DNA of 16,765 bases from Candidatus Woesearchaeota archaeon (GTDB taxonomy: Archaea > Nanobdellota > Nanobdellia > Woesearchaeales > GW2011-AR4): positions 362 to 17,126 of the forward strand of contig DUHN01000028.1 of assembly GCA_013330825.1 (NCBI GenBank). The letters run 5' to 3'. The notes under the pieces were generated by a model. It saw only the letters and a list, made by a program, of their open reading frames with translations. It made no database searches and had not been told where the DNA came from. Made by a program: the position numbers and the translations under genes. Of this stretch, positions 292 to 15,475 are shown piece after piece; position 1 is the stretch's first letter; the number at the start of each line of letters is the position of its first letter.

Positions 292-305
292 GTTATGAAG
301 GGAAA

Positions 306-543
306 GGCTCAGGTGAAAGCCTCGCTCACGCTCGGGGCAGCATCGGCTCAACTCCAACCTCGTGGAAACGAAGTTTCCGTTGGAAATGCCCGCGTGTAGC
401 GGGCTCCTTTTTGGTGAAGCTTTTTGGCCGCGTACTGAAGGGAAGCGTGTCAAAAAGATTCGGGGCGTCCCCCTTGTCGAACCGCTTTTGTTATGGGCGA
501 TACCGCTCACGAATTGATGCTGCCCTCCACTTTCTACTGAGCC
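306..543 (+). ncRNA. Structured intergenic element 1 (candidate ncRNA of a three-copy family)
   Basis: Outer stem: GGCTCAG 306-312 pairs with CTGAGCC 537-543, then after a 2x2 mismatch GAAAG 315-319 pairs with CTTTC 530-534. A 15-nt 5' loop (320-334) carries CTCGCTCACGCTCG opposite only TCCA (526-529). Second stem: GGGCAGCATC 335-344 pairs with GATGCTGCCC 516-525. The interior holds further hairpins: GGAAAC/GTTTCC 364-378, GCCCGC/GCGGGC 388-404 and CTTTTTG/CAAAAAG 420-457. The same design recurs at 3151-3309 and, on the minus strand, at 13281-13482, with compensatory changes in both stems. No ORF here is convincing. Whether it is an RNA gene or a cruciform-type repeat is unknown. Confidence 0.6.
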
Positions 544-580
544 GAAGGGAAAAGTTGCCCTGCTGTCTGAAAAAGCAACA

Positions 581-589
581 CATATAAAC
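581..589 (+). promoter_or_regulatory. TATA box of the beta-helix surface protein gene
   Basis: CATATAAAC is centred about 26 nt before the ATG at 611, consistent with a leaderless transcript. No Shine-Dalgarno motif precedes the ATG. Confidence 0.65.
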
Positions 590-610
590 GATGCCCATCA
601 AAATCCCTGC

Positions 611-1273
611 ATGAAAACGGGCGCAGCATTCCTCTTCTTCCTCTTCGCCTTGGCCCTGGGGGTCTCTGCCGAGTGCACCATTCCAGCTGACGGCCTCGTC
701 CTGGGATCATCGACAACGCTTTGCCCGGGCAATTACTCGGTCTCTGGGATGATGGTGGAAGGAACAAACATCGATCTGTCCTGCCAGGGAACAGTGCTGG
801 AAGGCAGCGGGGAAGGGGTGGGCATCGCGGTGCTGGACAGCTATGGAGTGAGCATACGGGACTGCACGCTCCGGAACTATGAGATAGGGATAGGCGTCCG
901 CAATTCAGCCTCCGTCTCGCTCACGGGGAACACCCTCGGCAGCAGCAAATTCGGGGTGGCGGTGATGGGCAGCGGGGGGATCGATGCGCAAAACAACACC
1001 TTCCTCGGCACGCTGACGGAGAGGATGATTACTGTTCCGGAGGAGGAAAGCATGGCTGCCCCGGAAACGGGAGAGGAAACTGCATCAGCGCAGGTGAGCG
1101 GGCAGGATGCGCGAGCCCAAGAGCCCGGCACCATCGCCGCACCAGCTCCGGGGGAGAAGGAAGAACCCCCTGCGCCGCGCAAACGCCCCGTGCCCACTGC
1201 GCCCGCCATCATCATCGCCGCCATATTGATCCTCGGCGTGCTGGTCGAAGGGTACAAGAGGACAAAGAAATAG
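611..1273 (+). CDS. Secreted parallel-beta-helix (NosD-like) surface protein with C-terminal membrane anchor
   Basis: 220 residues. Signal peptide 1-20 (cleavage probably after GVSA). Residues 21-135 look like short right-handed beta-helix coils: repeated 'G-V/I-x-V/I...S/C-T-L-x-N' units such as SIRDCTLRNY, VSLTGNTLGS and IDAQNNTFLG, as in NosD/periplasmic copper-binding-type repeats. It contains NYS and NNT sequons. Residues 136-196 form an E/P/A-rich, probably extended linker. Residues 197-214 are a hydrophobic helix followed by the basic tail KRTKK, giving a C-terminal membrane anchor with the beta-helix outside the cell. The coil domain is very short for a catalytic beta-helix enzyme, so a structural or binding role is likelier; the ligand is unknown. 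A TATA box 26 nt upstream supports the start. It is convergent with glk, with one base between the stop codons. Confidence 0.8.
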   Translation: MKTGAAFLFFLFALALGVSAECTIPADGLVLGSSTTLCPGNYSVSGMMVEGTNIDLSCQGTVLEGSGEGVGIAVLDSYGVSIRDCTLRNYEIGIGVRNSASVSLTGNTLGSSKFGVAVMGSGGIDAQNNTFLGTLTERMITVPEEESMAAPETGEETASAQVSGQDARAQEPGTIAAPAPGEKEEPPAPRKRPVPTAPAIIIAAILILGVLVEGYKRTKK

Positions 1274-1274
1274 C

Positions 1275-2288
1275 CTATCCCTGCCTGTTCAGCGCGTGCC
1301 ACGCGGCGCCGCGCACGCCCAAGCCGGTGTGTTTCACCACAAAGAGGGGGATTTTGGCGAGCAGCGGCTTCAGCTCCGCCGCGTTCTCCCATTCCTGCCT
1401 GAATTCCCGGGAGGAAAAGATGTCCGGGTTCTTGGCGGCAATGCCTCCTCTGATGTACAGGCCCCCGTACGGAAGCGCGGACGCCGCCGTCGTGCGCGCG
1501 AACCGGGCATAGAAGCGCGTGAAAAGGGAAAATGCCTCTTTGCAGAGCCTGTCCTTCTTCCGGTAGGCCGCGACAAGGGACGCCTTGTCCGATGCCGCCC
1601 GTATCTCCCTGTTGACGAGCAGCTCAGGCGGCGAAAGCGCCTGTTTTCTTTTGCTGACGGCGAAATCATACAGGGTGGCGATGCCCCTTCCGGAGAGCGC
1701 TTCCTCCCAGCACACCATCCTCATTTTTTTCGTCTTCCTGATGAACTGGAGCAGCGCGTATTCCTCGTCATCGGCGACGGGAAGCGGCGCATGCCCTTCC
1801 TCCGAGCGCAGGGCGGCATACCTGCCCGTCCCCGCGTCGTAGTGGAGCAACGCCTTTCCCAGCCCGGTGCCGGCGCCGATCACCGCCATGGGCGCGTTCT
1901 TCCTTGGCTTGTTCCGCGTCAGCGGGATGATGTCCCGCGATGATGCCGTCAGGATGCCATAGGCGGCAGCCTCGAAGTCATTGATGAGCCTCACGTTGCT
2001 TATGCCCAGGGCTTTTTGGATCTCCCGGACAGAGAGGGTGCAGGGCGCATTGGTGAGCCGCACCTTGCCGCCCTCGACAGGGCCGGCGACGCCGAAGCAG
2101 GCCGCGGTGATGGCTATGCCGCGCCCTTTCGCGTCCTGCGCCGCCTTCGCAAGCAGGAGGCGGAGGTTGGTTTCCCCAGTGCCGGAAGAGAACGTCATCA
2201 CCGGCCTAAGGCTGGGGGAGAAGATGCCGATGGTGGCGGTGGTGCCGCCGATGTCCGCCCCGAGGACACAGGAAAGCGCGCCTCTCAT
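1275..2288 (-). CDS. glk: Glucokinase, Glk family (ATP-dependent hexose kinase)
   Basis: 337 residues from the ATG at 2288; longer in-frame extensions are anti-sense-like low-complexity sequence. Visible motifs are the N-terminal phosphate loop GADIGGTT (10-17), the sugar-binding/catalytic region LINDFEAAAYG with D104, the second nucleotide motif GAGTGLGKAL (138-147), SEEGH with E163 and H166 (E157/H160 of E. coli Glk), EEALSG with E195 (E187 in E. coli), and the C-terminal adenosine motif YIRGGIAAKN. Length matches the family (about 320-340). It should phosphorylate glucose to glucose-6-phosphate in the cytosol. Most archaea use ADP-dependent or ROK sugar kinases, so a Glk-type enzyme suggests transfer from bacteria (inference). 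The start overlaps the upstream ACT-protein stop as ATGA, implying translational coupling. Confidence 0.88.
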   Translation of the reverse strand: MRGALSCVLGADIGGTTATIGIFSPSLRPVMTFSSGTGETNLRLLLAKAAQDAKGRGIAITAACFGVAGPVEGGKVRLTNAPCTLSVREIQKALGISNVRLINDFEAAAYGILTASSRDIIPLTRNKPRKNAPMAVIGAGTGLGKALLHYDAGTGRYAALRSEEGHAPLPVADDEEYALLQFIRKTKKMRMVCWEEALSGRGIATLYDFAVSKRKQALSPPELLVNREIRAASDKASLVAAYRKKDRLCKEAFSLFTRFYARFARTTAASALPYGGLYIRGGIAAKNPDIFSSREFRQEWENAAELKPLLAKIPLFVVKHTGLGVRGAAWHALNRQG

Positions 2289-2974
2289 CCCGCAACGACC
2301 TCCTGCAGGACGGTGTATGCCTTCATGGAATCCCTCTTGTGGATGATAACCGTGAGCTCCGTGATGGTGGAGACGATCTCGTAGATGTTGATGCTCTCCC
2401 ACGCCAGCCTGCGCACGGCGGAGAAGATGACGCCGGGGGTCGTGAGGAAATCCTTGGAGGAGAAGCGCAGGGTGATGGCCACGAGGTCCTGCTGCTTCGT
2501 GAGGACGGACTCTCCCTTGAGGAATCCCATCAGCCGCTCCCGGTATTTCTCGTTGGTGATGATGCACGCCTCGTTGTTGCCGAGGATGACATTGAAGACG
2601 TCCCCATGCTCGACGTCCACCATCTTGTAGAGGTCCTTGATCTTGGTCGAGAAGACGGGTGTCTTGAGGACATTGATATCGATGATGTTGGTGCGCATGA
2701 GGATCTCTCCCGGAAGGCGCCTGCCCTCGAGCCTCTTCGTTGTCTTGGAGAGCCCGTCCGCGTACCTGCGCAGCGCCATCACGACGGCCGCGTCCTTGAC
2801 CGGGCTGCCGAACTCCTTCTCTATCTCCGGCTTGATGAGCGCGGCAAGGTTGCCGTAGCTCACCAGGTCCTTGGCCATCGCCTCGAGGAGGAACTCGTTC
2901 TGCTGCACTGCCCTCTTGACGAGATGCGCGACGGTGACCATGTGCCTTGCGTCCTTGGGACCATTGATTTTCAA
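2285..2974 (-). CDS. ACT-domain protein with N-terminal helical (winged-helix-like) region, putative regulator
   Basis: 229 residues. Residues 12-85 are helical (VAHLVKRAVQQ, YGNLAALIKPEIEKEFG, AAVVMALRRYADGL) and look like the winged-helix/HTH half of an archaeal regulator family. Residues 86-160 are a beta-rich middle part. Residues 165-229 form an ACT-type fold: beta strand ITLRFS, then TPGVIFSAVRRLAWESINIYEIVST (helix and strand), a strand ELTVIIHK and a final helix AYTVLQEVV. ACT domains usually bind small ligands, often amino acids; the ligand here is not evident. The gene begins a two-gene operon with glk (ATGA overlap). A TATA box centred about 35 nt upstream gives a leader of roughly 10 nt. 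Divergent from the small ORF at 3028. Function as a transcription regulator is inference. Confidence 0.8.
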   Translation of the reverse strand: MKINGPKDARHMVTVAHLVKRAVQQNEFLLEAMAKDLVSYGNLAALIKPEIEKEFGSPVKDAAVVMALRRYADGLSKTTKRLEGRRLPGEILMRTNIIDINVLKTPVFSTKIKDLYKMVDVEHGDVFNVILGNNEACIITNEKYRERLMGFLKGESVLTKQQDLVAITLRFSSKDFLTTPGVIFSAVRRLAWESINIYEIVSTITELTVIIHKRDSMKAYTVLQEVVAG

Positions 2975-2997
2975 AATGTTATTATTGTAACGGAATG

Positions 2998-3014
2998 TTT
3001 AAATAATATATAAA
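2998..3014. promoter_or_regulatory. Bidirectional AT-rich TATA region
   Basis: Minus strand: TTTATATATT (3005-3014) serves the ACT protein gene starting at 2974. Plus strand: TTTAAATA (2998-3005) is centred 26 nt before the ATG at 3028. Overlapping divergent TATA elements in 17 bp suggest that the two transcripts compete or are co-regulated. Confidence 0.55.
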
Positions 3015-3027
3015 TCTTCCGCTTCCC

Positions 3028-3135
3028 ATGGGAAGAAAGCGCCTGGCGGAAGGGCCGGTGAAGGGCAGGGAGGACAGCCTCGTGCTGGAGGCCATGGACT
3101 GCAACAATTCCGCGGAAGAGATGGGGATGAAGTAA
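3028..3135 (+). CDS. Putative 35-residue leaderless small protein
   Basis: ATG at 3028 to TAA at 3135; the product begins MGRKRLAEG and ends SAEEMGMK. Codon choice (GAG, GCC, CTG, AAG, GAC) matches the GC-rich genes of the window, and a TATA-like TTTAAATA sits at the leaderless distance. The content is mixed charge with a short amphipathic stretch (SLVLEAMD). No family recognised. It ends 15 bp before structured element 2, so its transcript would run into that element. It could be a true small protein, the 5' part of an element-2 transcript, or the stump of a gene whose remainder was lost. Confidence 0.4.
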   Translation: MGRKRLAEGPVKGREDSLVLEAMDCNNSAEEMGMK

Positions 3136-3150
3136 GGGAAGGGACTGGGT

Positions 3151-3309
3151 GGTATTGAAAATTCTCGCTCACGCCCGGGCAGCACCGGTTCGCTCATTGA
3201 TTGAGACTTTGATGGGCGGCCCCTTCCCGTAGGGAGCCTCCCCTTCCGCCCCGCTTGTCCAACGGATGATGCCGCTCACAAATTGGTGCTGCCTGCACTT
3301 CTCAATATC
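3151..3309 (+). ncRNA. Structured intergenic element 2 (same family as 306-543)
   Basis: Outer stem: GGTATTGA 3151-3158 pairs with TCAATATC 3302-3309 (one G-T wobble). The 5' loop (3159-3176) contains CTCGCTCACGCCC. Second stem: GGGCAGCACC 3177-3186 pairs with GGTGCTGCCT 3285-3294 (terminal G-T). Relative to element 1, the T/A pair in the second stem has become C/G, keeping the pairing. Inner hairpins: CTCA/TGAG 3192-3205 and GGGCGG/CCGCCC 3214-3251 enclosing TCCC-GTA-GGGA. The 3' half also shares primary sequence with element 1 (3268-3300 versus 499-532, roughly 85% by eye). Confidence 0.6.
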
Positions 3310-3325
3310 GCTAGGGACTGGCAAC

Positions 3326-3922: not shown

Positions 3923-4675
3923 ATGCGCATCGCACTGATTGGCTACGGGAAGATGGGAAGGGAGATCGAGGCTGTCGCCACGCAGCGCGGCCACTCCGTC
4001 GTCCGCATAGACCCCAATACGCCAGAGGCGGACTACCGGGCAGTCTCGAAGGATGCGCTGAAGGGAGCGGATGTCGCGATCGACTTCACCCTGCCATCCG
4101 CGGTGGTGGACAACATCAAGGCGGTCGCGTCCTGCGGCGTGGACATGGTCGTCGGAACCACCGGATGGTATGAGCGCATGGACGAAGTGGCCGGCATCGC
4201 GAAGAAGGGCGGCATCGGCCTCATCTGGAGCGGGAACTTCTCCATCGGCATGAACGTCTTCTTCGAGCTGGTGAGGCATGGCGCAAGGCTCATGGACAGG
4301 CTGGACGCGTACGACGTGCTGGTGCACGAGACCCATCACGCGAAGAAAGCGGACTCCCCTTCCGGAACGGCCGAGATGCTCGGGAAGATCCTGCTGGACA
4401 GCATGTCCAGGAAGACGGCGCTGGCGAGGGACCGCCTGGACAGGCCCATTGCGGAGAACGAGATCCATCTCACCTCGACGCGCGGCGGCCATATCCCCGG
4501 CATCCATGAAGTGATGTTCGACTCTCCCGCTGACACCATTGAGCTGAAGCACACCGCCCGCTCCAGGGCGGGATTCGCTTTCGGGGCGGTGCTCGCTGCG
4601 GAGTTCATCAGGGGAAGGAAGGGCATGCACACGGCGGATGACCTGATGGCATCCCTCCTGGAGGCCAGCCAATGA
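3923..4675 (+). CDS. dapB: 4-hydroxy-tetrahydrodipicolinate reductase
   Basis: 250 residues, usual DapB length. N-terminal Rossmann motif IGYGKMG (6-12); D30 at the end of the second strand is where family members carry an acidic residue that favours NADH. IDFT (53-56) and GTTGW (78-82) are the conserved nucleotide and substrate loops. The signature HETHHAKKADSPSGTA gives catalytic H138 and K142 (E. coli H159/K163), and SGT is the substrate-phosphate-like anchor. The C-terminal domain carries ELKHTARSRAGFAFGA. The enzyme reduces the DapA product to tetrahydrodipicolinate in the cytosol. First gene of the lysine cluster; its stop overlaps the dapA start as ATGA, so the two are probably coupled. 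Confidence 0.95.
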   Translation: MRIALIGYGKMGREIEAVATQRGHSVVRIDPNTPEADYRAVSKDALKGADVAIDFTLPSAVVDNIKAVASCGVDMVVGTTGWYERMDEVAGIAKKGGIGLIWSGNFSIGMNVFFELVRHGARLMDRLDAYDVLVHETHHAKKADSPSGTAEMLGKILLDSMSRKTALARDRLDRPIAENEIHLTSTRGGHIPGIHEVMFDSPADTIELKHTARSRAGFAFGAVLAAEFIRGRKGMHTADDLMASLLEASQ

Positions 4676-5562
4676 CGATGATGACGATGTTCAAGGGAGC
4701 ATACACGGCGCTGGTGACCCCGTTCGCCGCGGACGGCAGCATCGACGAGCAGGCCCTGCGGAAGCTGGTCGAGGCGCAGATAGCCGGAGGCATAGACGGC
4801 ATCGTGCCCTGCGGCACGACAGGGGAAAGCCCCACCATCACGGTCGAGGAGCAGGAGCGCATCTTCCGCATAGCGGTGTCGCAGGCCAAGGGAAGGTGCA
4901 CGGTCATCGCGGGGGCGGGGGCCAACTCCACCGAGGAGGCAATCAGGCTCACCCAATATGCCAAGGACGCGGGATGCGACGCCACCCTTCATGTCTCGCC
5001 CTATTACAACAAGCCCACCCAGGAAGGGCTCTTCCGCCACTTCAGGGCGGTCGCGGATGCCGTGGACATCCCCATCATCCTCTACAACATCAAGGGCAGG
5101 ACAGCCGTCAACATAGAAACAGAGACGCTCCTGCGCCTCTCCGCGGTGAAGAACATCGCCGGGGTCAAGGAAGCGTCAGGGGACATCAGCCAGATCATGG
5201 ACGTCATCGGATCGGTGCCGCAGGGATTCACCGTGCTCTCGGGGGACGACAACCTGACATTCCCCCTCATGGCACTCGGCGGCCACGGCGTCGTCTCTGT
5301 GGCGAGCAACCTCGTTCCCGGGGAGGTTTCGCAGATGGTGCACGCCATGCTGAAGAAGGACGTGGAGAAGGCACGCGCGCTCCATTACCGGCTCCTCCCG
5401 CTCTTCAAGGCCATCTTCATCGAGACCAATCCCATCCCCATCAAGGCAGCCATGGCGATGAAGGGGATGATCGAAGAGACGTACCGGCTGCCATTGTGCG
5501 AGATGCAGCCCAAAAACCGGGAGCGGCTGAAGGCTGCCCTTGGCAAACTCGGCATTCTTTAG
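4672..5562 (+). CDS. dapA: 4-hydroxy-tetrahydrodipicolinate synthase
   Basis: 296 residues, full-length TIM-barrel aldolase of the DHDPS family. Pyruvate-binding GTTGES has T49/T50 (E. coli T44/T45). SPYYNKPTQEG carries Y112 (E. coli Y107), ILYN carries Y138 (Y133), R143 matches R138, and the Schiff-base lysine is K166 in GVKEASGD (K161). One oddity is the segment YNIKGRT, where most DHDPS enzymes read YN-V-P-S/G-RT; a lysine replaces the proline. Catalytic residues are intact, so activity is expected: condensation of pyruvate with aspartate semialdehyde. Start at 4672 (ATGA overlap with dapB) is chosen, but in-frame ATGs at 4681 and 4687 are close and cannot be excluded. Confidence 0.95.
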   Translation: MTMMTMFKGAYTALVTPFAADGSIDEQALRKLVEAQIAGGIDGIVPCGTTGESPTITVEEQERIFRIAVSQAKGRCTVIAGAGANSTEEAIRLTQYAKDAGCDATLHVSPYYNKPTQEGLFRHFRAVADAVDIPIILYNIKGRTAVNIETETLLRLSAVKNIAGVKEASGDISQIMDVIGSVPQGFTVLSGDDNLTFPLMALGGHGVVSVASNLVPGEVSQMVHAMLKKDVEKARALHYRLLPLFKAIFIETNPIPIKAAMAMKGMIEETYRLPLCEMQPKNRERLKAALGKLGIL

Positions 5563-5571
5563 GGCCGCAAA

Positions 5572-5580
5572 CATTTATTA
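5572..5580 (+). promoter_or_regulatory. Possible internal promoter before lysA
   Basis: CATTTATTA in the 93-bp dapA-lysA gap, the only sizeable gap in the cluster. It predicts transcription from about 5603 and a leader near 50 nt, so lysA-dapF-dapL may be transcribed separately as well as from the dapB promoter. Confidence 0.35.
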
Positions 5581-5636
5581 ACGCCTCGTTTCGCCTTTTC
5601 ACCGGCAGGTCCTATCCGTTCAAAGTAGGATCATCA

Positions 5637-5651
5637 CAGGTGCATCAGGTG
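5637..5651 (+). promoter_or_regulatory. Duplicated AGGTG ribosome-binding motif before lysA
   Basis: AGGTGCATC occurs twice in tandem immediately before the ATG at 5656; the second AGGTG ends 4 nt before the start. It matches the anti-Shine-Dalgarno end of 16S rRNA. lysA thus looks leadered, in contrast with most genes in the window. Confidence 0.45.
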
Positions 5652-5655
5652 CATC

Positions 5656-6873
5656 ATGAACCAAGACACTAGCAATCTCATCGGATTGGCAGAGAAGTAC
5701 GGCACTCCCCTGTACGTCTATGACGGGGAACTGATCCGTCAACGATATAGGGAACTCCATACGTTCATCTCCTGGCCGAAACTGCGCATCTATTATGCGA
5801 TGAAGGCCAACGCCAACGTCCGGATACTGAAGCTCCTCGGAAAAGAGGGGGCAGGCCTGGACACGGTGAGCCCCGCAGAGGTTTTGCTGGGACTCAGGGC
5901 AGGATTCGCGCCGGAAAGGATGCTCTACACCGCAAACAACATGACGGACGGGGAGATCAGGGAAGTCCGGAAGACCGGCGTGCTGATGAATTTTGAATCC
6001 CTTGTCCATCTCGAGAAGTTCGGCAGCATGTTCCCGGGCTCAGAGGTATGCGTGCGGCTGAACCCAGACGTGATGGCGGGATATTTCGACAAGATCAAGA
6101 CCGGCGGGGCGCTCACCAAGTTCGGGATTCTCCTGCAGGACATCCCCCAGGTGCTGGACATCGCGCAGCGCCATCGCCTGAACATAGTGGGCATCCATGA
6201 GCACACGGGAAGCGGCATCAACAATTCTGATGCGGTCCTGCAAAGCATGAGGAACATCCTCGACGCGATAATCCCGGAAGCGTTCCCAGGGCTCAGGTTC
6301 GTGGATTTCGGAGGGGGCTTCGGCGTCCCGTACAAGCCGGATGACAGGAGGATAGACTACGCAACGTTCGGCAGGCACATCACGGACATCTTCTCGGCAT
6401 TCTGCAGGCGCTATGGAAAAGAGCTGGAGCTGTGCTTCGAGCCGGGAAAATACATCGTGGCGGAAGCCGGCACGTTCCTCGTCCAGGTGAACAACCTCAA
6501 GGACAACCGCGGACGGCTCATCGCCGGGGTCAACTCAGGCTTCCCCCAGCTCATCAGGCCGATGTTCTACGGGGCATATCATCATATGGACAATCTCTCC
6601 AACCCCGGCGGGAAAAGGAACGTGTATGACATCGTGGGGAACATCTGCGAGACCGGCGACCGCTTCGCGGAGCAGCGTGAGTTGCCCGAGATCCGCATCG
6701 GCGATTATCTTGCGATCAGGAATGCGGGAGCCTACTGCTACGCCATGGGCGGAGTCTACAACCTCAGGCCAATGCCGTCGGAAGTGATCGTGGAGAACGG
6801 CAAAGACCGGCTGGCGCGCAGGGGCCTCACGAACAGCGAGCTTGTTGAGCAGATGATGGGGGAAAGCGCATGA
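5656..6873 (+). CDS. lysA: Diaminopimelate decarboxylase
   Basis: 405 residues, PLP fold-type III. The PLP lysine is K50 in YYAMKANAN; HEHTGSG (181-187) supplies the histidine that stacks on PLP; DFGGGFGVPY (217-226) is the Gly-rich phosphate loop; EPGKYIVAE (262-270) carries the substrate-binding segment; and C331/E332 in NICETGD form the active-site Cys-Glu pair, with Y360 in NAGAY. It decarboxylates meso-DAP to L-lysine. The C-terminal part (LIRPMFYGAYHHMDN, then NP-x-GK) resembles, from memory, the Bacteroidota-style LysA branch more than the classical E. coli enzyme, hinting at bacterial origin. Overlaps dapF by ATGA. In the cluster it precedes the two genes that make its substrate. Confidence 0.95.
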   Translation: MNQDTSNLIGLAEKYGTPLYVYDGELIRQRYRELHTFISWPKLRIYYAMKANANVRILKLLGKEGAGLDTVSPAEVLLGLRAGFAPERMLYTANNMTDGEIREVRKTGVLMNFESLVHLEKFGSMFPGSEVCVRLNPDVMAGYFDKIKTGGALTKFGILLQDIPQVLDIAQRHRLNIVGIHEHTGSGINNSDAVLQSMRNILDAIIPEAFPGLRFVDFGGGFGVPYKPDDRRIDYATFGRHITDIFSAFCRRYGKELELCFEPGKYIVAEAGTFLVQVNNLKDNRGRLIAGVNSGFPQLIRPMFYGAYHHMDNLSNPGGKRNVYDIVGNICETGDRFAEQRELPEIRIGDYLAIRNAGAYCYAMGGVYNLRPMPSEVIVENGKDRLARRGLTNSELVEQMMGESA

Positions 6874-7715
6874 AGCTCCGGTTCGCCAAGATGGAGGGGA
6901 CGGGGAACGATTATGTCTACGTGGATTGCGTCAATGAGCCAGCCGAACGGCTTGGCGACCTGCCGCAGCTCAGCAGGCGCCTCAGCGACCGCCACTTCGG
7001 CATCGGCAGCGACGGCCTCATCCTCATCCTGCCGTCAAAGAAGGCGGACTTCAGGATGCGCATGTTCAACGCGGACGGCTCCGAGGGGGAGATGTGCGGC
7101 AACGGCATCCGATGCTTCGCGAAATACGTGCACGACAGAAAGCTAACGAGCAAGGATTCCCTTACGGTTGAAACAAAAGGAGGGATAAAGGAACTCGAGC
7201 TTTTTGTCAAAAGCGGAAAAACCATGAAGATTAAGGTTGACATGGGTGAGCCTGTGTTGGAGGGTAAAAAGATTCCCTCAACCATATCAAAGAAGCAGGT
7301 TGTAGGGGAACCTCTAAATATAGAGGGAAAGAAGGTGGAGATGACGCTCGTGAACATGGGGAATCCCCATTGCGTCATTTTTGTTAATAAGGTTACTGAT
7401 AGCTTAGTGCATGGCATTGGGCCAAAAATCGAGAAGCATCCCCTCTTTCCGAAACGAATTAATGTGGAGTTCATAACGGTAAGGAACAGGAAGGAAGTGG
7501 ACATGCGGGTCTGGGAGCGCGGCTCCGGGGAAACGCTGGCCTGCGGCACCGGCGCATCGGCTGCCTGCGTGGCCGGTGTCCTGAACGCTCTCACGGATCG
7601 CAAGGTCACCATCCACCTGCTTGGCGGGGACCTCCAACTGGAGTGGGGAACGGACAATCATGTGTACATGACCGGCCCGGCAGAGATGGTCTTTGAGGGC
7701 GAGATAGATATCTGA
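6870..7715 (+). CDS. dapF: Diaminopimelate epimerase
   Basis: 281 residues, normal length. The two catalytic cysteines are C76 (EMCGNGIRCF) and C225 (LACGTGASA), each starting one of the paired half-domains; GTGNDY (10-15) and GNPH (164-167) are conserved substrate contacts. It converts LL-DAP to meso-DAP. The start overlaps the lysA stop (ATGA). Oddity: bases 7141-7500 (residues about 91-210) are about 44% GC with codons such as AAA, ATA, TTA, GTT and AAT, whereas the flanking 60-base blocks are 60% and 75% GC. Both active-site halves lie in the GC-rich parts. The frame is intact and conserved residues remain, so the gene should be functional; a recombined (mosaic) middle is an inference. 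Confidence 0.95.
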   Translation: MKLRFAKMEGTGNDYVYVDCVNEPAERLGDLPQLSRRLSDRHFGIGSDGLILILPSKKADFRMRMFNADGSEGEMCGNGIRCFAKYVHDRKLTSKDSLTVETKGGIKELELFVKSGKTMKIKVDMGEPVLEGKKIPSTISKKQVVGEPLNIEGKKVEMTLVNMGNPHCVIFVNKVTDSLVHGIGPKIEKHPLFPKRINVEFITVRNRKEVDMRVWERGSGETLACGTGASAACVAGVLNALTDRKVTIHLLGGDLQLEWGTDNHVYMTGPAEMVFEGEIDI

Positions 7716-7721
7716 AACACC

Positions 7722-8933
7722 ATGGCCAAACGAAACCCCCATCTCGCAAAACTGCAATCCGGCTATCTCTTCCCCGAGATAAACAGGAGGAAGAAGGAAT
7801 TCCTGGCAGCGCATCCACAGGCGAAGCTCATCAGCCTGGGCATTGGCGATACCACGCAACCGATTGCCCCCCCTATCATCAAAGGGATTGTTCAGGCAGT
7901 GAAACGGCTCGGGAAACGGGATACCTATACCGGCTACGGCGATGAGCAGGGCATCACGGAGCTCCGGGAGAGGATAGCTTCGGTGCTGTATCATGGAAGG
8001 GTGAAGGGAGAGGAGGTCTTCGTCTCCGACGGTGCGAAGCCTGACACCGGAAGGCTGCAGATGCTCTTCGGCAGCGACACCGTGATGGCGGTGCAGGATC
8101 CCTCATACCCGGTCTATGTGGACAGCAGCGTCATGATGGGACAGACCGGGCCGCTTAGCTCAAAGACATCCCAATTCAAGGGCATCGCGTATCTTCCGTG
8201 CACTCCGGACAATGGGTTTTTCCCTTCCCTTGGGAACGCTAAGGATGCAGGCGTCATCTTCTTCTGCTCGCCGAACAACCCCACCGGGGCCGTGGCCACC
8301 AGGGAACAGCTGAAGGCGCTGGTGGATTTCGCAAAGGAGAACAGGTCCATCATCATCTTTGATGCCGCGTACAGCCAGTTCATCCGGGACGAGAATCTCC
8401 CACGATCCATCTACGAGATTCCGGGGGCGAAGGAGGTCGCGCTCGAGGTCTCCTCGTTTTCAAAGTCCATCGGCTTCACCGGGGTCAGGCTCGGCTGGAC
8501 CGTCGTTCCCAATGAGCTCTGCTTCGATGACGGCACTCCCGTGCGGAAGGACTGGAACCGCATCATGACCACGGTCTTCAACGGCGCGTCCAGCATAGCA
8601 CAGTATGGCGGGATAGCGGCTCTTGAGAGGGAAGGCATGAAAGAGATGGAGCGGACCGTTTCCTATTACATGGAGAACGCCTCCATCATCCGGCAGGCGC
8701 TGCGGAAGCTCGGCTACACGGTATTCGGCGGGGACAACGCGCCATACTTATGGGTGCAGACGAAGGGCATGACATCCTGGGACGCATTTTCCTTCCTTCT
8801 GCAGAAGGCCCACGTCATCACCACGCCCGGGTCCGGCTTCGGCCCCTCGGGAGAGGGCTTCCTGCGCTTCAGCGCCTTCGGGCACCGGGAGGATGTCCTT
8901 GAGGCGGTGAAGAGATTGGAGAAAATCCTTTGA
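7722..8933 (+). CDS. dapL: LL-diaminopimelate aminotransferase
   Basis: 403 residues, class I/II fold-type I PLP aminotransferase. DapL-type features: an opening near LFPEINRRKKEF, LGIGDTTQPI, TGYGDEQG and VSDGAKPDTGRLQ early in the protein; SPNNPTG (183-189); the DAAYSQF segment; PLP lysine K248 in SSFSKSIGFTGVRLGW with R256; and a C-terminal GEGFLRFSAFG with the substrate-carboxylate arginine. It transfers an amino group from glutamate to tetrahydrodipicolinate, giving LL-DAP in one step, so no dapD/dapC/dapE is needed. Only 6 bp follow dapF, so it is the last gene of the cluster. Its presence with dapF and lysA defines the aminotransferase variant of the DAP pathway. Confidence 0.93.
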   Translation: MAKRNPHLAKLQSGYLFPEINRRKKEFLAAHPQAKLISLGIGDTTQPIAPPIIKGIVQAVKRLGKRDTYTGYGDEQGITELRERIASVLYHGRVKGEEVFVSDGAKPDTGRLQMLFGSDTVMAVQDPSYPVYVDSSVMMGQTGPLSSKTSQFKGIAYLPCTPDNGFFPSLGNAKDAGVIFFCSPNNPTGAVATREQLKALVDFAKENRSIIIFDAAYSQFIRDENLPRSIYEIPGAKEVALEVSSFSKSIGFTGVRLGWTVVPNELCFDDGTPVRKDWNRIMTTVFNGASSIAQYGGIAALEREGMKEMERTVSYYMENASIIRQALRKLGYTVFGGDNAPYLWVQTKGMTSWDAFSFLLQKAHVITTPGSGFGPSGEGFLRFSAFGHREDVLEAVKRLEKIL

Positions 8934-13280: not shown

Positions 13281-13482
13281 GGGGTTGTTGCGTGATTGGA
13301 GGTTGCCATCATCCCGGCAAATCCCTGCAATGGTAAATCAAGCCGACAAGGGGGATGCCCCTGCTCGGAGGCGCACCTCCGGCATCCACTGCGTGGACTA
13401 TGGGGAATGTCGGCAATAGAGGAGGGCATGGAGGATTTGCCCGATGGCAACCCGAGCGAAGCGAGAATCACGCAACAACCCC
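13281..13482 (-). ncRNA. Structured intergenic element 3, 202-nt extended hairpin (same family as 306-543 and 3151-3309)
   Basis: Read on the minus strand. Outer stem: a perfect 17-bp repeat, GGGGTTGTTGCGTGATT at 13281-13297 (plus-strand reading) with its complement at 13466-13482. The 5' loop at 13465-13453 reads CTCGCTTCGCTCG opposite only TCC. Second stem: GGTTGCCATC 13301-13310 with 13443-13452. Further stems continue inward: GGCAAATCC 13316-13324 with 13433-13441, GCCGACA 13342-13348 with 13409-13415, GGATGCC 13353-13359 with 13381-13387, and a terminal GGAGG-CGCA-CCTCC 13367-13380. That gives about 55 pairs. The loop motif and order of stems match the other two elements while the stem sequences differ. 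A minus-strand reading of the A/T box at 13503-13512 would place a start near 13482. Confidence 0.65.
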
Positions 13483-14416: not shown

Positions 14417-15475
14417 ATGAGACTGATTGGTTTTGACTCCAAATTGATTAAAAGAGAAAAAAGGAATTTTAAAGCTCTGTTAGGGGTATCAGTTTTAGTA
14501 AATAACTATGATCAATTTTGTCAGAAATATGATGAATTGATTGACAAAACTTTGTCCTCCTTGTCTATCCCAAAATCACGAAGAGTCTATAAATCTTCAG
14601 ATTTAACAGAAATCACACATAGAGTTGGCGTGGATGTAGTAACTCTTGTGGCTAATGGGTTATTGAAATATATTGATTTTGTAGATGTGTATTATACATA
14701 TTTCCAACCAGAGTATCCAGATTCAATTATTGATAAATCGAAAATAAAAGAAGTTAAAGATATAAGTTGTTATTATATGCAAGAAATTGAAAGGCTTTCT
14801 CCTGTTAAATTTATTGATTTGATTTCTGGTTATTACCCCACTATATGTTGTCACGCTTATCTAAAAAATAAATCTTTCACATTACAGGAGCACTATTATT
14901 TAGACCATTGTTCTGGAATACAACCCAGTATTGCCATAAAAAACGTTCTTTCTAAGCCTAATGTTAAGTTTGTTTTCAGAGGAGACCAAATAAATCCTGT
15001 TATATCCTCAGCAGATATTATATGTAGGTACATAGATGATTTTGCTTTTAAAAATGGTCTTTCTCTTAATAGACATTTGCCAAAACGTCTTAATTTTGAA
15101 TCAAATAAATCACAAACTACTTTTATTGGGCCAAGTTGGTTATTTGATATCAAACCCTCCCACAAAGAACATCTAAATGTGTCTCATAAATGTTTGCACC
15201 CTATCTTTTACTTTATTACTGCACCAATAAGTGAAAGTATATTTGGAAAAAAAGCAAGAGATACTTTGGAAAAGTCCTCAATATTTTCATCAGCACTTGA
15301 AAAGGCTAGCCATCTAAATGGGTCTGTAAAGTTTTTTGAATCTAACGATCAGCTATACACCACCAAAGAAGATTTTGTGGTAGTTCATGATGAGTATAGC
15401 CAAAAAGTAGCTGACAATTTAGTAAGGATGGGTAGTCAAGCGAGTATAATTGATTATAATTACTTTAAAAAATAG
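14417..15475 (+). CDS. Orphan protein of foreign composition, distantly DUF3800-like at best
   Basis: 352 residues, full ORF with ATG and TAG. Base use is strikingly AT-rich (AAA, ATA, TTA, AAT and TCT codons) against GC-rich neighbours, indicating recent horizontal transfer. No signal peptide or membrane helix. An early acidic position follows a strand (RLIGFDSK); next come SVLVNNYDQFCQKYDELIDK and a lysine-bearing VYKSSDL; later VKFVFRGDQINP and SSADIICRYIDDFAF. The order strand-Asp, helix, K-S/T-x-D/E, and a late 'S-A-D-I-I' helix loosely recalls DUF3800 RNase-H-fold proteins, which occur in defence and mobile contexts. This is a weak guess and not an assignment. C-terminal half (HPIFYFITAPISESIFGKK) not recognised. 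No integrase, transposase or partner gene is adjacent. Confidence 0.8.
   Translation: MRLIGFDSKLIKREKRNFKALLGVSVLVNNYDQFCQKYDELIDKTLSSLSIPKSRRVYKSSDLTEITHRVGVDVVTLVANGLLKYIDFVDVYYTYFQPEYPDSIIDKSKIKEVKDISCYYMQEIERLSPVKFIDLISGYYPTICCHAYLKNKSFTLQEHYYLDHCSGIQPSIAIKNVLSKPNVKFVFRGDQINPVISSADIICRYIDDFAFKNGLSLNRHLPKRLNFESNKSQTTFIGPSWLFDIKPSHKEHLNVSHKCLHPIFYFITAPISESIFGKKARDTLEKSSIFSSALEKASHLNGSVKFFESNDQLYTTKEDFVVVHDEYSQKVADNLVRMGSQASIIDYNYFKK

Follow-up and report, generated by a model that had tools for sequence, protein, structure and literature searches.

Covarying intergenic repeats in a Woesearchaeota genome are very probably MITE-type transposons with many different ends

Two intergenic elements in a 16,765-nt stretch (hereafter 'the window', meaning this whole stretch) of contig DUHN01000028.1 of Candidatus Woesearchaeota archaeon, a genome of 1.157 Mb in 83 contigs with a completeness of 87.1%, carry nested stems that differ in sequence between the copies and pair in both. 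Such a pattern raises the question of whether the elements belong to a family of structured RNAs, as a first-pass annotation of the sequence had suggested, or whether the pairing is kept for reasons that lie in the DNA. The analyses described below make it very likely that the elements are non-autonomous DNA transposons of the miniature inverted-repeat transposable element (MITE) type, in which the outer stem is the terminal inverted repeat; a transposase of the IS5 family, acting in trans, is the probable mobiliser of some of their classes. From the outside inwards, the elements consist of an outer stem (P1; up to 15 bp, with a sequence specific to each class of copies), a 5' spacer usually of 13-14 nt (CTCGCT..CGCTCG-like, as opposed to 2-3 nt on the 3' side), a second stem of 10 bp (P2), a variable stretch, an inner stem (P4) and a C-rich/G-rich/C-rich core.

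That two structured elements exist was borne out, and their limits were refined to positions 306-543 (copy 1) and 3149-3312 (copy 2) since flanking direct repeats begin exactly where each element ends (Table 1). In 97 aligned copies, from which three rows were omitted in the flank test and two in the covariation test, the flanks at an offset of 9 bp matched at eight or more of nine positions in 39 of 94 copies and at all nine in 25, as opposed to 0.56 and 0.32, respectively, for shuffled flanks, and only 1 to 5 copies matched at offsets of 7, 8, 10 or 11 bp. Copy 1 was included in the 39, and copy 2 was absent from them because the model set its left end one base early; the remaining copies had no such flank match at their model-set ends. 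A further set gave a 9-bp duplication in 14 of 31 copies. In many copies the unit spanned exactly from one outer end of P1 to the other between the 9-bp target duplications, and in the 39 copies with duplications the terminal positions were Watson-Crick pairs in 550 of 585 cases. Duplications of this kind at the element ends mark a DDE-type transposon, whose terminal inverted repeat is P1. The family combines inverted repeats at the exact ends, a duplication of fixed length and multiple, dispersed copies devoid of coding capacity, as MITEs do. P1 pairing also dropped as the duplication decayed, from 0.957 in copies with 9/9 matching positions (n = 25) to 0.834 in those with 4/9 or fewer (n = 43; Spearman 0.47, p = 1.8e-6).

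The family was abundant in the window's genome. Copy 2 used as a BLAST query gave 21 places including itself, one of them (L002) 96% identical over 165 bp, and a longer copy used as query gave 54 matches, part of which covered single arms only. A covariance model (R1) built from 31 copies, 27 of which came from this genome, located 57 places at E<=1, some of them partial; 54 of these were at E<=1e-3, and their stems paired, so that the further copies anticipated in the first-pass annotation were indeed present. The 10-mer shared by the window copies was not significant by itself (3 matches in the window with at most one mismatch, with 1.45 expected), and a chance repeat was ruled out by the copy number in the genome. 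Lengths were 163-167 bp in 56 of the 97 aligned copies and 144-204 bp in 93 of them, and the two spacers between P1 and P2 differed by 10 or 11 nt in 73. The 5' arm of P1 took 74 distinct forms among 96 copies; P1 was nevertheless paired in 88.8% of cells of a structure-free alignment of 31 copies. Copies 1 and 2 have a common 5' spacer (CTCGCTCACGCTCG / CTCGCTCACGCCC). The change from T-A in copy 1 to C-G in copy 2, reported for P2 in the first-pass annotation, was present on both arms, and the outer stems were, as described there, unlike in sequence and paired in both copies. Outer stems that are unrelated and still pair are what would be predicted for a transposon, whose two ends carry the same sequence.

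Covariation between the arms was tested in two ways. In the structure-free alignment of 31 copies, changes on both sides of a pair occupied 188 cells, as opposed to 59.8 after shuffling and at most 46 when the arms were slid. Under a purpose-made tree-based null (MAFFT alignment of 95 copies, 300 simulations), 8 of 15 pairs in P1, 6 of 10 in P2 and 4 of 6 in P4 lay above all 300 simulations (18 of 31 in total), and the covariation that the first-pass annotation had pointed to thus exceeded both the sliding controls and a phylogeny-aware null. Folding energies of single copies were less striking, with z = -2.96 in copy 1 and no more than -1.14 in copy 2.

Whether such covariation is kept in RNA or in DNA can be judged from the mispairs, since G-U is far better tolerated than A-C in RNA stems, whereas at the DNA level both represent a single mismatch read from opposite strands. 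The ratio of G-U to A-C was 40:33 over all stems in the structure-free alignment, and by stem it was 14:16 in P2, 14:15 in P4, 15:27 in the C-G core stem and 7:14 in the inner hairpin H2; in P1, with the ends fixed by the duplications, it was 10:7. The tRNAs of the same genome (ARAGORN; 19 of 22 distinct tRNAs parsed, 3 dropped) gave 28:2. When copies were oriented by tandem neighbours, 21 G-U and 33 A-C equivalents were counted (36 copies, crude open reading frame (ORF) calls). The model-fitted alignment leaned towards G-U (52:25 in P1; 80:56 in P1, P2 and P4 together, p = 0.048; 53:34 in the copies of the window's genome), a lean that was discounted because an alignment of this kind favours standard pairs. 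The mispairs thus carry no clear RNA-like excess of G-U, and the pairing is therefore taken to be kept at the DNA level; the covariation of the arms is genuine, and the constraint looks like one on DNA and not on a functional RNA.

The candidate mobiliser was sought within the same order, at 53 distinct loci encoding transposases (PF01609, NF033579), some of them truncated at the end of a contig. These transposases match PF01609; against NF033579 most score below the cut-off, which is passed in 20 of 82 positive genomes. Nine of the loci had inverted ends beginning GG together with a 9-bp duplication matching at eight or more of nine positions. Among the PF01609 loci, L149 had an inverted repeat beginning CC with 7 of 8 duplication bases, and no inverted repeat with a matching duplication was found at L143, L145-L147 and L150. 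Out of 172 MITE arms (86 copies outside the window's genome), 46 agreed at all 14 bases compared with one of four IS5 ends (GGCTCTGTCCTAAA, 25 arms; GGCTCTGTAGAAAA, 16; GGCTCTGTCCTGAA, 4; GGCTCCGGTGAAAA, 1), and 17 of the 84 arms of the window's genome, including the 3' arm of copy 1, were one base off such an end. In one genome (G225), the end of a resident insertion sequence (IS) differed by one base from a MITE arm and was nearer to it than in all 48 other genomes. Comparison of these ends suggests that IS5-family insertion sequences probably mobilise the GGCTC-type classes; the class of copy 2 is left out of this assignment. With units bounded by 9-bp target-site duplications and an outer stem that in relatives matches terminal inverted repeats of the IS5 family, the earlier view that the pattern reflects more than a copied repeat was not supported.

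The likeness stops at the ends. When 12 insertion sequences were compared with 128 MITE copies by blastn, 17 matches stayed within the outermost 30 bp, a further one reached 35 bp and none went deeper, and the MITE interior (P2, P4 and core) is, at the level of sequence, distinct from that of the insertion sequences compared. The IS5-family elements found here resemble IS903, whose ends begin GG and whose insertion duplicates 9 bp. PMC11708052 places IS5 in the IS903 sub-group and reports, for several IS families, duplications between 1 and 9 bp long.

In the mechanism that we propose, an IS5-family DDE transposase, supplied by resident or passing insertion sequences, would bind both arms of P1 and cut at their outer ends, so excising or copying the element, which would then be joined into a target cut with a 9-bp stagger. 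P1 would covary because one transposase acts on both arms, which must present the same sequence to it, and because transposase specificities differ. P2, P4 and the core are probably kept as hairpin-forming or symmetrically placed DNA that aids movement or tolerance, their upkeep possibly being helped when replication copies one arm of the palindrome onto its partner. The interior may otherwise be passive cargo, a DNA module whose spacings at the two ends lie one helical turn apart, or a sequence that folds when single-stranded.

Several observations weigh against a mobiliser of the IS5 family or against transposition as a sufficient account. Only the nine loci mentioned, out of 53, gave GG-ends with a 9-bp duplication, and one more had a duplication of 8 bp. 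None of the 84 arms of the window's genome was identical to an IS5 end, 42 of them were six or more mismatches away, and the two arms of copy 2 differed at 5 and 7 of 14 positions from the closest IS5 end seen. Matching within a genome stood out only in G225; with the remaining 13 IS ends, between 5 and 44 of the 48 other genomes came as close or closer. MITEs and NF033579 were, against expectation, independent of each other among 287 genomes (NF033579 in 25 of 83 genomes with a MITE and in 57 of 204 without one, p = 0.77, a count that assumes that the MITE and transposase scans covered the same 287 genomes), and searches of the window's genome (87% complete) with PF01609 and NF033579 gave no match. 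The decay of P1 pairing was not significant in the window's genome alone (0.24, p = 0.12). Pairing in P2 (0.988 to 0.963, p = 0.23) and in P4 remained steady as the duplication decayed, the P4 trend being reversed in the window's genome alone (-0.34, p = 0.04), and transposition alone does not account for the persistence of these two stems; these trends are suggestive only, because detection favours copies with an intact P2. In a comparison of one locus with 8 genomes of its family, no syntenic site was located and no empty site recovered. Insertion sequences are often absent from assembled bins, and for this reason the IS5 family is retained as the probable yet unproven mobiliser.

The most durable alternative holds that the covariation of the arms arose mainly by template switching at replication, in which one arm of the palindrome is copied onto the other with no selection on pairing, a process by which the two ends could also change in step and so follow new transposases. 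Near-equal numbers of G-U and A-C in most stems would be expected of any such DNA-level process, and the way in which P1 stays paired across its many 5'-arm strings fits it as well. The same data, however, fit selection on DNA pairing equally well, and the outer arms are more than 100 bp apart, a separation longer than most documented template switches. We regard this alternative as possible, with the odds against it. It bears on a further proposal about the history of the family, namely that the interior (the asymmetric one-turn spacer, P2, P4 and the CCCC-GTA-GGGG-CCCC core) is older than any of its mobilisers and has lasted across the order while both terminal repeats were re-tailored to successive transposases, the hairpin being what allows one arm to template its partner and also filling a DNA-level role in transposition or host tolerance. 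This proposal is put forward tentatively and as rather doubtful; if the interior does outlive the transposases, the family would offer a testable case of helper switching in which both ends change together.

Adoption of some MITE copies by the host, either as transcript hairpins (blocking read-through or serving as RNase III sites) or as promoter-region DNA, as in Correia and ERIC elements, is considered unlikely. P2 and P4 are paired in copies with decayed ends, as this would predict, and 31 of 75 classifiable copies had divergent genes on either side and 8 had convergent ones, raw proportions that rest on crude mechanical ORF calls, with 22 of the 97 copies at contig edges and a long ORF overlapping 22 of the classified copies. 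An RNA-like preference for G-U was, however, lacking when the copies were oriented by transcription, and the persistence of P2 is biased by a detection model that rewards it. RNase III cleavage at Correia elements figures in a MITE review among several effects on expression (PMC10969869).

A functional family of structured RNAs (regulatory RNA or small RNA gene), with stems selected on the transcript, was judged very improbable. It would account for the strong covariation over the phylogenetic null, for a core conserved across the order, for a P2 that is still paired in copies with decayed ends and for the G-U lean of the model-fitted alignment. The other mispair counts are at odds with it: no preference for G-U appeared in P2, P4, the core stem, H2 or the all-stem count, nor a clear one in the duplication-fixed P1, in marked distinction to the tRNAs, and the count oriented by tandem neighbours leaned the other way. 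Orientation relative to neighbouring genes was mixed, and no Rfam family attained its gathering score in a scan of the window. The RNA-family reading of the first-pass annotation was rejected as the leading one on the Rfam scan and on the mispairs, G-U being about as frequent as A-C in P2 and the inner stem. Another hairpin-based mobile system, such as integron attC sites or single-strand transposition of the REP/IS200-IS605 kind, would share the folded hairpin, the single asymmetric bulge and the variable sequence, but has next to no probability given copies that are scattered among many contigs instead of forming an array, and 9-bp target duplications, which neither integron recombination nor IS200/IS605 single-strand transposition is known to make; no search was aimed at integrase or Y1 transposase genes.

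The MITE-type reading places the family beside several known systems. The Correia (Neisseria), ERIC, RUP and BOX elements are palindromic intergenic repeats of about 100-200 bp that are thought to be mobilised in trans, each family with one conserved terminal repeat. They occur in different hosts and are likened here by description, not by sequence; in contrast to them, as far as their general description goes, many terminal repeats are found here on one interior. Prokaryotic MITEs, as characterised in PMC10969869, are likewise shorter than 500 bp, geneless, intergenic and multicopy, with strong hairpins, terminal inverted repeats and flanking direct repeats that erode over time. The present family differs from them in being GC-rich in the window's genome, in keeping one core throughout an archaeal order under differing terminal repeats, and in its lopsided P1-P2 spacing, which in 73 of 97 copies is greater by 10-11 nt on one side. 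Archaeal MITEs are named in the same review for Sulfolobus, Halobacterium and Haloquadratum (PMC10969869); these too are archaeal non-autonomous elements, of other lineages, and are again likened by description and not by sequence. With the IS5-family elements (PF01609; nearest NCBIfam NF033579) the family shares GG ends, a repeat of about 14 bp equal or near to P1 of many copies and, at nine loci, duplications of 9 bp; those elements are mostly about 0.9-1.2 kb long and carry a transposase gene, whereas the elements here are geneless. What is unusual is a hairpin-rich interior kept throughout an order beneath many different ends, unlike the insertion sequences compared. The family supplies a mobile element for a large uncultured archaeal order, and it carries a caution for RNA discovery, as transposon palindromes can yield strong covariation above a phylogenetic null; the ratio of G-U to A-C mispairs, used with a tRNA control, helps to separate such palindromes from RNA.

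The order that hosts the family appears to be Woesearchaeales. With R1 at E<=1e-4, a match was found in at least 83 of its 287 genomes and at least 66 of 192 genera, and a class-wide draw of 378 genomes (split by order not shown) gave at least 23 positive genomes at E<=1e-5, all of the same order; scoring covered 8 candidates per genome in the order scan and 6 in the class-wide scan, and the counts are therefore lower bounds. The consensus of 78 aligned copies from elsewhere retained the spacer and the core TTCCCCGTA-GG-C-CCCCCT, with much else varying, and out of 86 outside copies 71 matched a loose core pattern and only 37 a strict spacer pattern. Viral contigs contained no match to two element patterns or to a 20-mer of the inner module described below. 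A contig titled Thaumarchaeota (L067; JACPBJ010000150.1) held a copy very like the GGCTCAGTAG class of the window's genome, with a 10-bp exact flanking repeat, reflecting either a transfer or a misbinned contig. A Methylorubrum stretch (L069), one of five matches in named genomes, was not element-like and was taken as chance. Among the papers listed in literature searches, judged by title and abstract and with subscription journals and preprints outside their scope, none described a MITE in Woesearchaeota or DPANN; one paper that mentions both DPANN and miniature inverted repeats deals with diversity-generating retroelements.

Table 1. Features of the three element copies in the window, and ends of IS5-family insertion sequences of the same order
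Feature	Position in window	Strand	Sequence	Remark
Target-site duplication, left, copy 1	297..305		GAAGGGAAA	exact 9-bp direct repeat, read in sequence
Mobile element copy 1	306..543	+		238 bp; interior longer than in the basic form of ~165 bp
Copy 1 P1 / terminal inverted repeat, 5' arm	306..319	+	GGCTCAGGTGAAAG	
Copy 1 5' spacer	320..334	+	CCTCGCTCACGCTCG	much longer than 3'-side counterpart
Copy 1 P2 5' arm	335..344	+	GGGCAGCATC	
Copy 1 P2 3' arm	516..525	+	GATGCTGCCC	
Copy 1 P1 / terminal inverted repeat, 3' arm	530..543	+	CTTTCTACTGAGCC	
Target-site duplication, right, copy 1	544..552		GAAGGGAAA	exact 9-bp direct repeat
Target-site duplication, left, copy 2	3140..3148		AGGGACTGG	exact 9-bp direct repeat
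Mobile element copy 2	3149..3312	+		164 bp; basic length
Copy 2 P2 5' arm	3177..3186	+	GGGCAGCACC	
Copy 2 P2 3' arm	3285..3293	+	GGTGCTGCC	
Target-site duplication, right, copy 2	3313..3321		AGGGACTGG	exact 9-bp direct repeat
Mobile element copy 3	13283..13480	-	GTTGTTGCGTGATT / AATCACGCAACAAC (outer stem)	no clear target-site duplication
IS5 ends with 9-bp duplication			GGCCGCGATGAAAATC, GGCTAATATGAAACCC (two loci), GGCTCTGTTCAAAATC, GGGTTTGTCCCAAATC, GGCTCTGTTGAAAATC, GGCTCCGTAGAATTGC, GGCTCTGTCCTGAATC, GGCTCCATCCAAAAAT	
IS5 end with 8-bp duplication			GGCTCTGTAGAAAAC	
IS5 ends without clear duplication			GGCTCTGTCCTAAATC, GGCTCTGTAGAAAATC	

An inner hairpin module of about 57 bp (ATTCCCC-GTAGTCCACGCAGTGGATGCCGGAAGC..GCTTCCGGGCA-GGGGCGTCCCC) lengthens the core of 21 of 42 aligned copies of the window's genome, across several outer-stem classes, and is present in none of the 86 from other genomes. 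Examples are the inner part of L022, C50:28058, C39:1791 and positions 13344-13412 of the window. The hairpin of this module, CCACGCAGTGGATGCCGGAA, was also seen in a genome of another genus, immediately upstream of an ORF (L063, G011:C9:241870-241897), in a setting that by eye is not MITE-like. The interior of copy 1 (window 350-465) is unlike the other copies seen and has hairpins of its own, located between the 5' side of P2 and the GGGGCGTCCCC core. Another copy (L047, G000:C81:20661-20862) appears chimeric by eye, with a 5' half of the GGCTCTGTCCCGAAT class and a 3' half like the GTTGTTGCG class, which suggests recombination between copies. Some copies of the window's genome have no P1 recognisable by eye; in three of these (L059, L003 and L035, at G000:C18:12304, C41:3543 and C60:7391) P2 is perfect, and it is 12-13 bp long in two of them, as if P2 had turned into the outermost stem.

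All three window copies sit between divergent frames (ORFs of at least 80 aa), and the open reading frames that cross the copies were judged to be chance. Positions 3923-8933 of the window hold a run of five genes matching DapB, DHDPS (DapA), a LysA-type decarboxylase, diaminopimelate (DAP) epimerase and a class I/II aminotransferase, by which a diaminopimelate/lysine route is apparently encoded in this small archaeal genome. A 352-aa ORF at positions 14417-15475 had no Pfam match at E<=0.001; it looks AT-rich by eye amid a GC-rich region and was possibly acquired.

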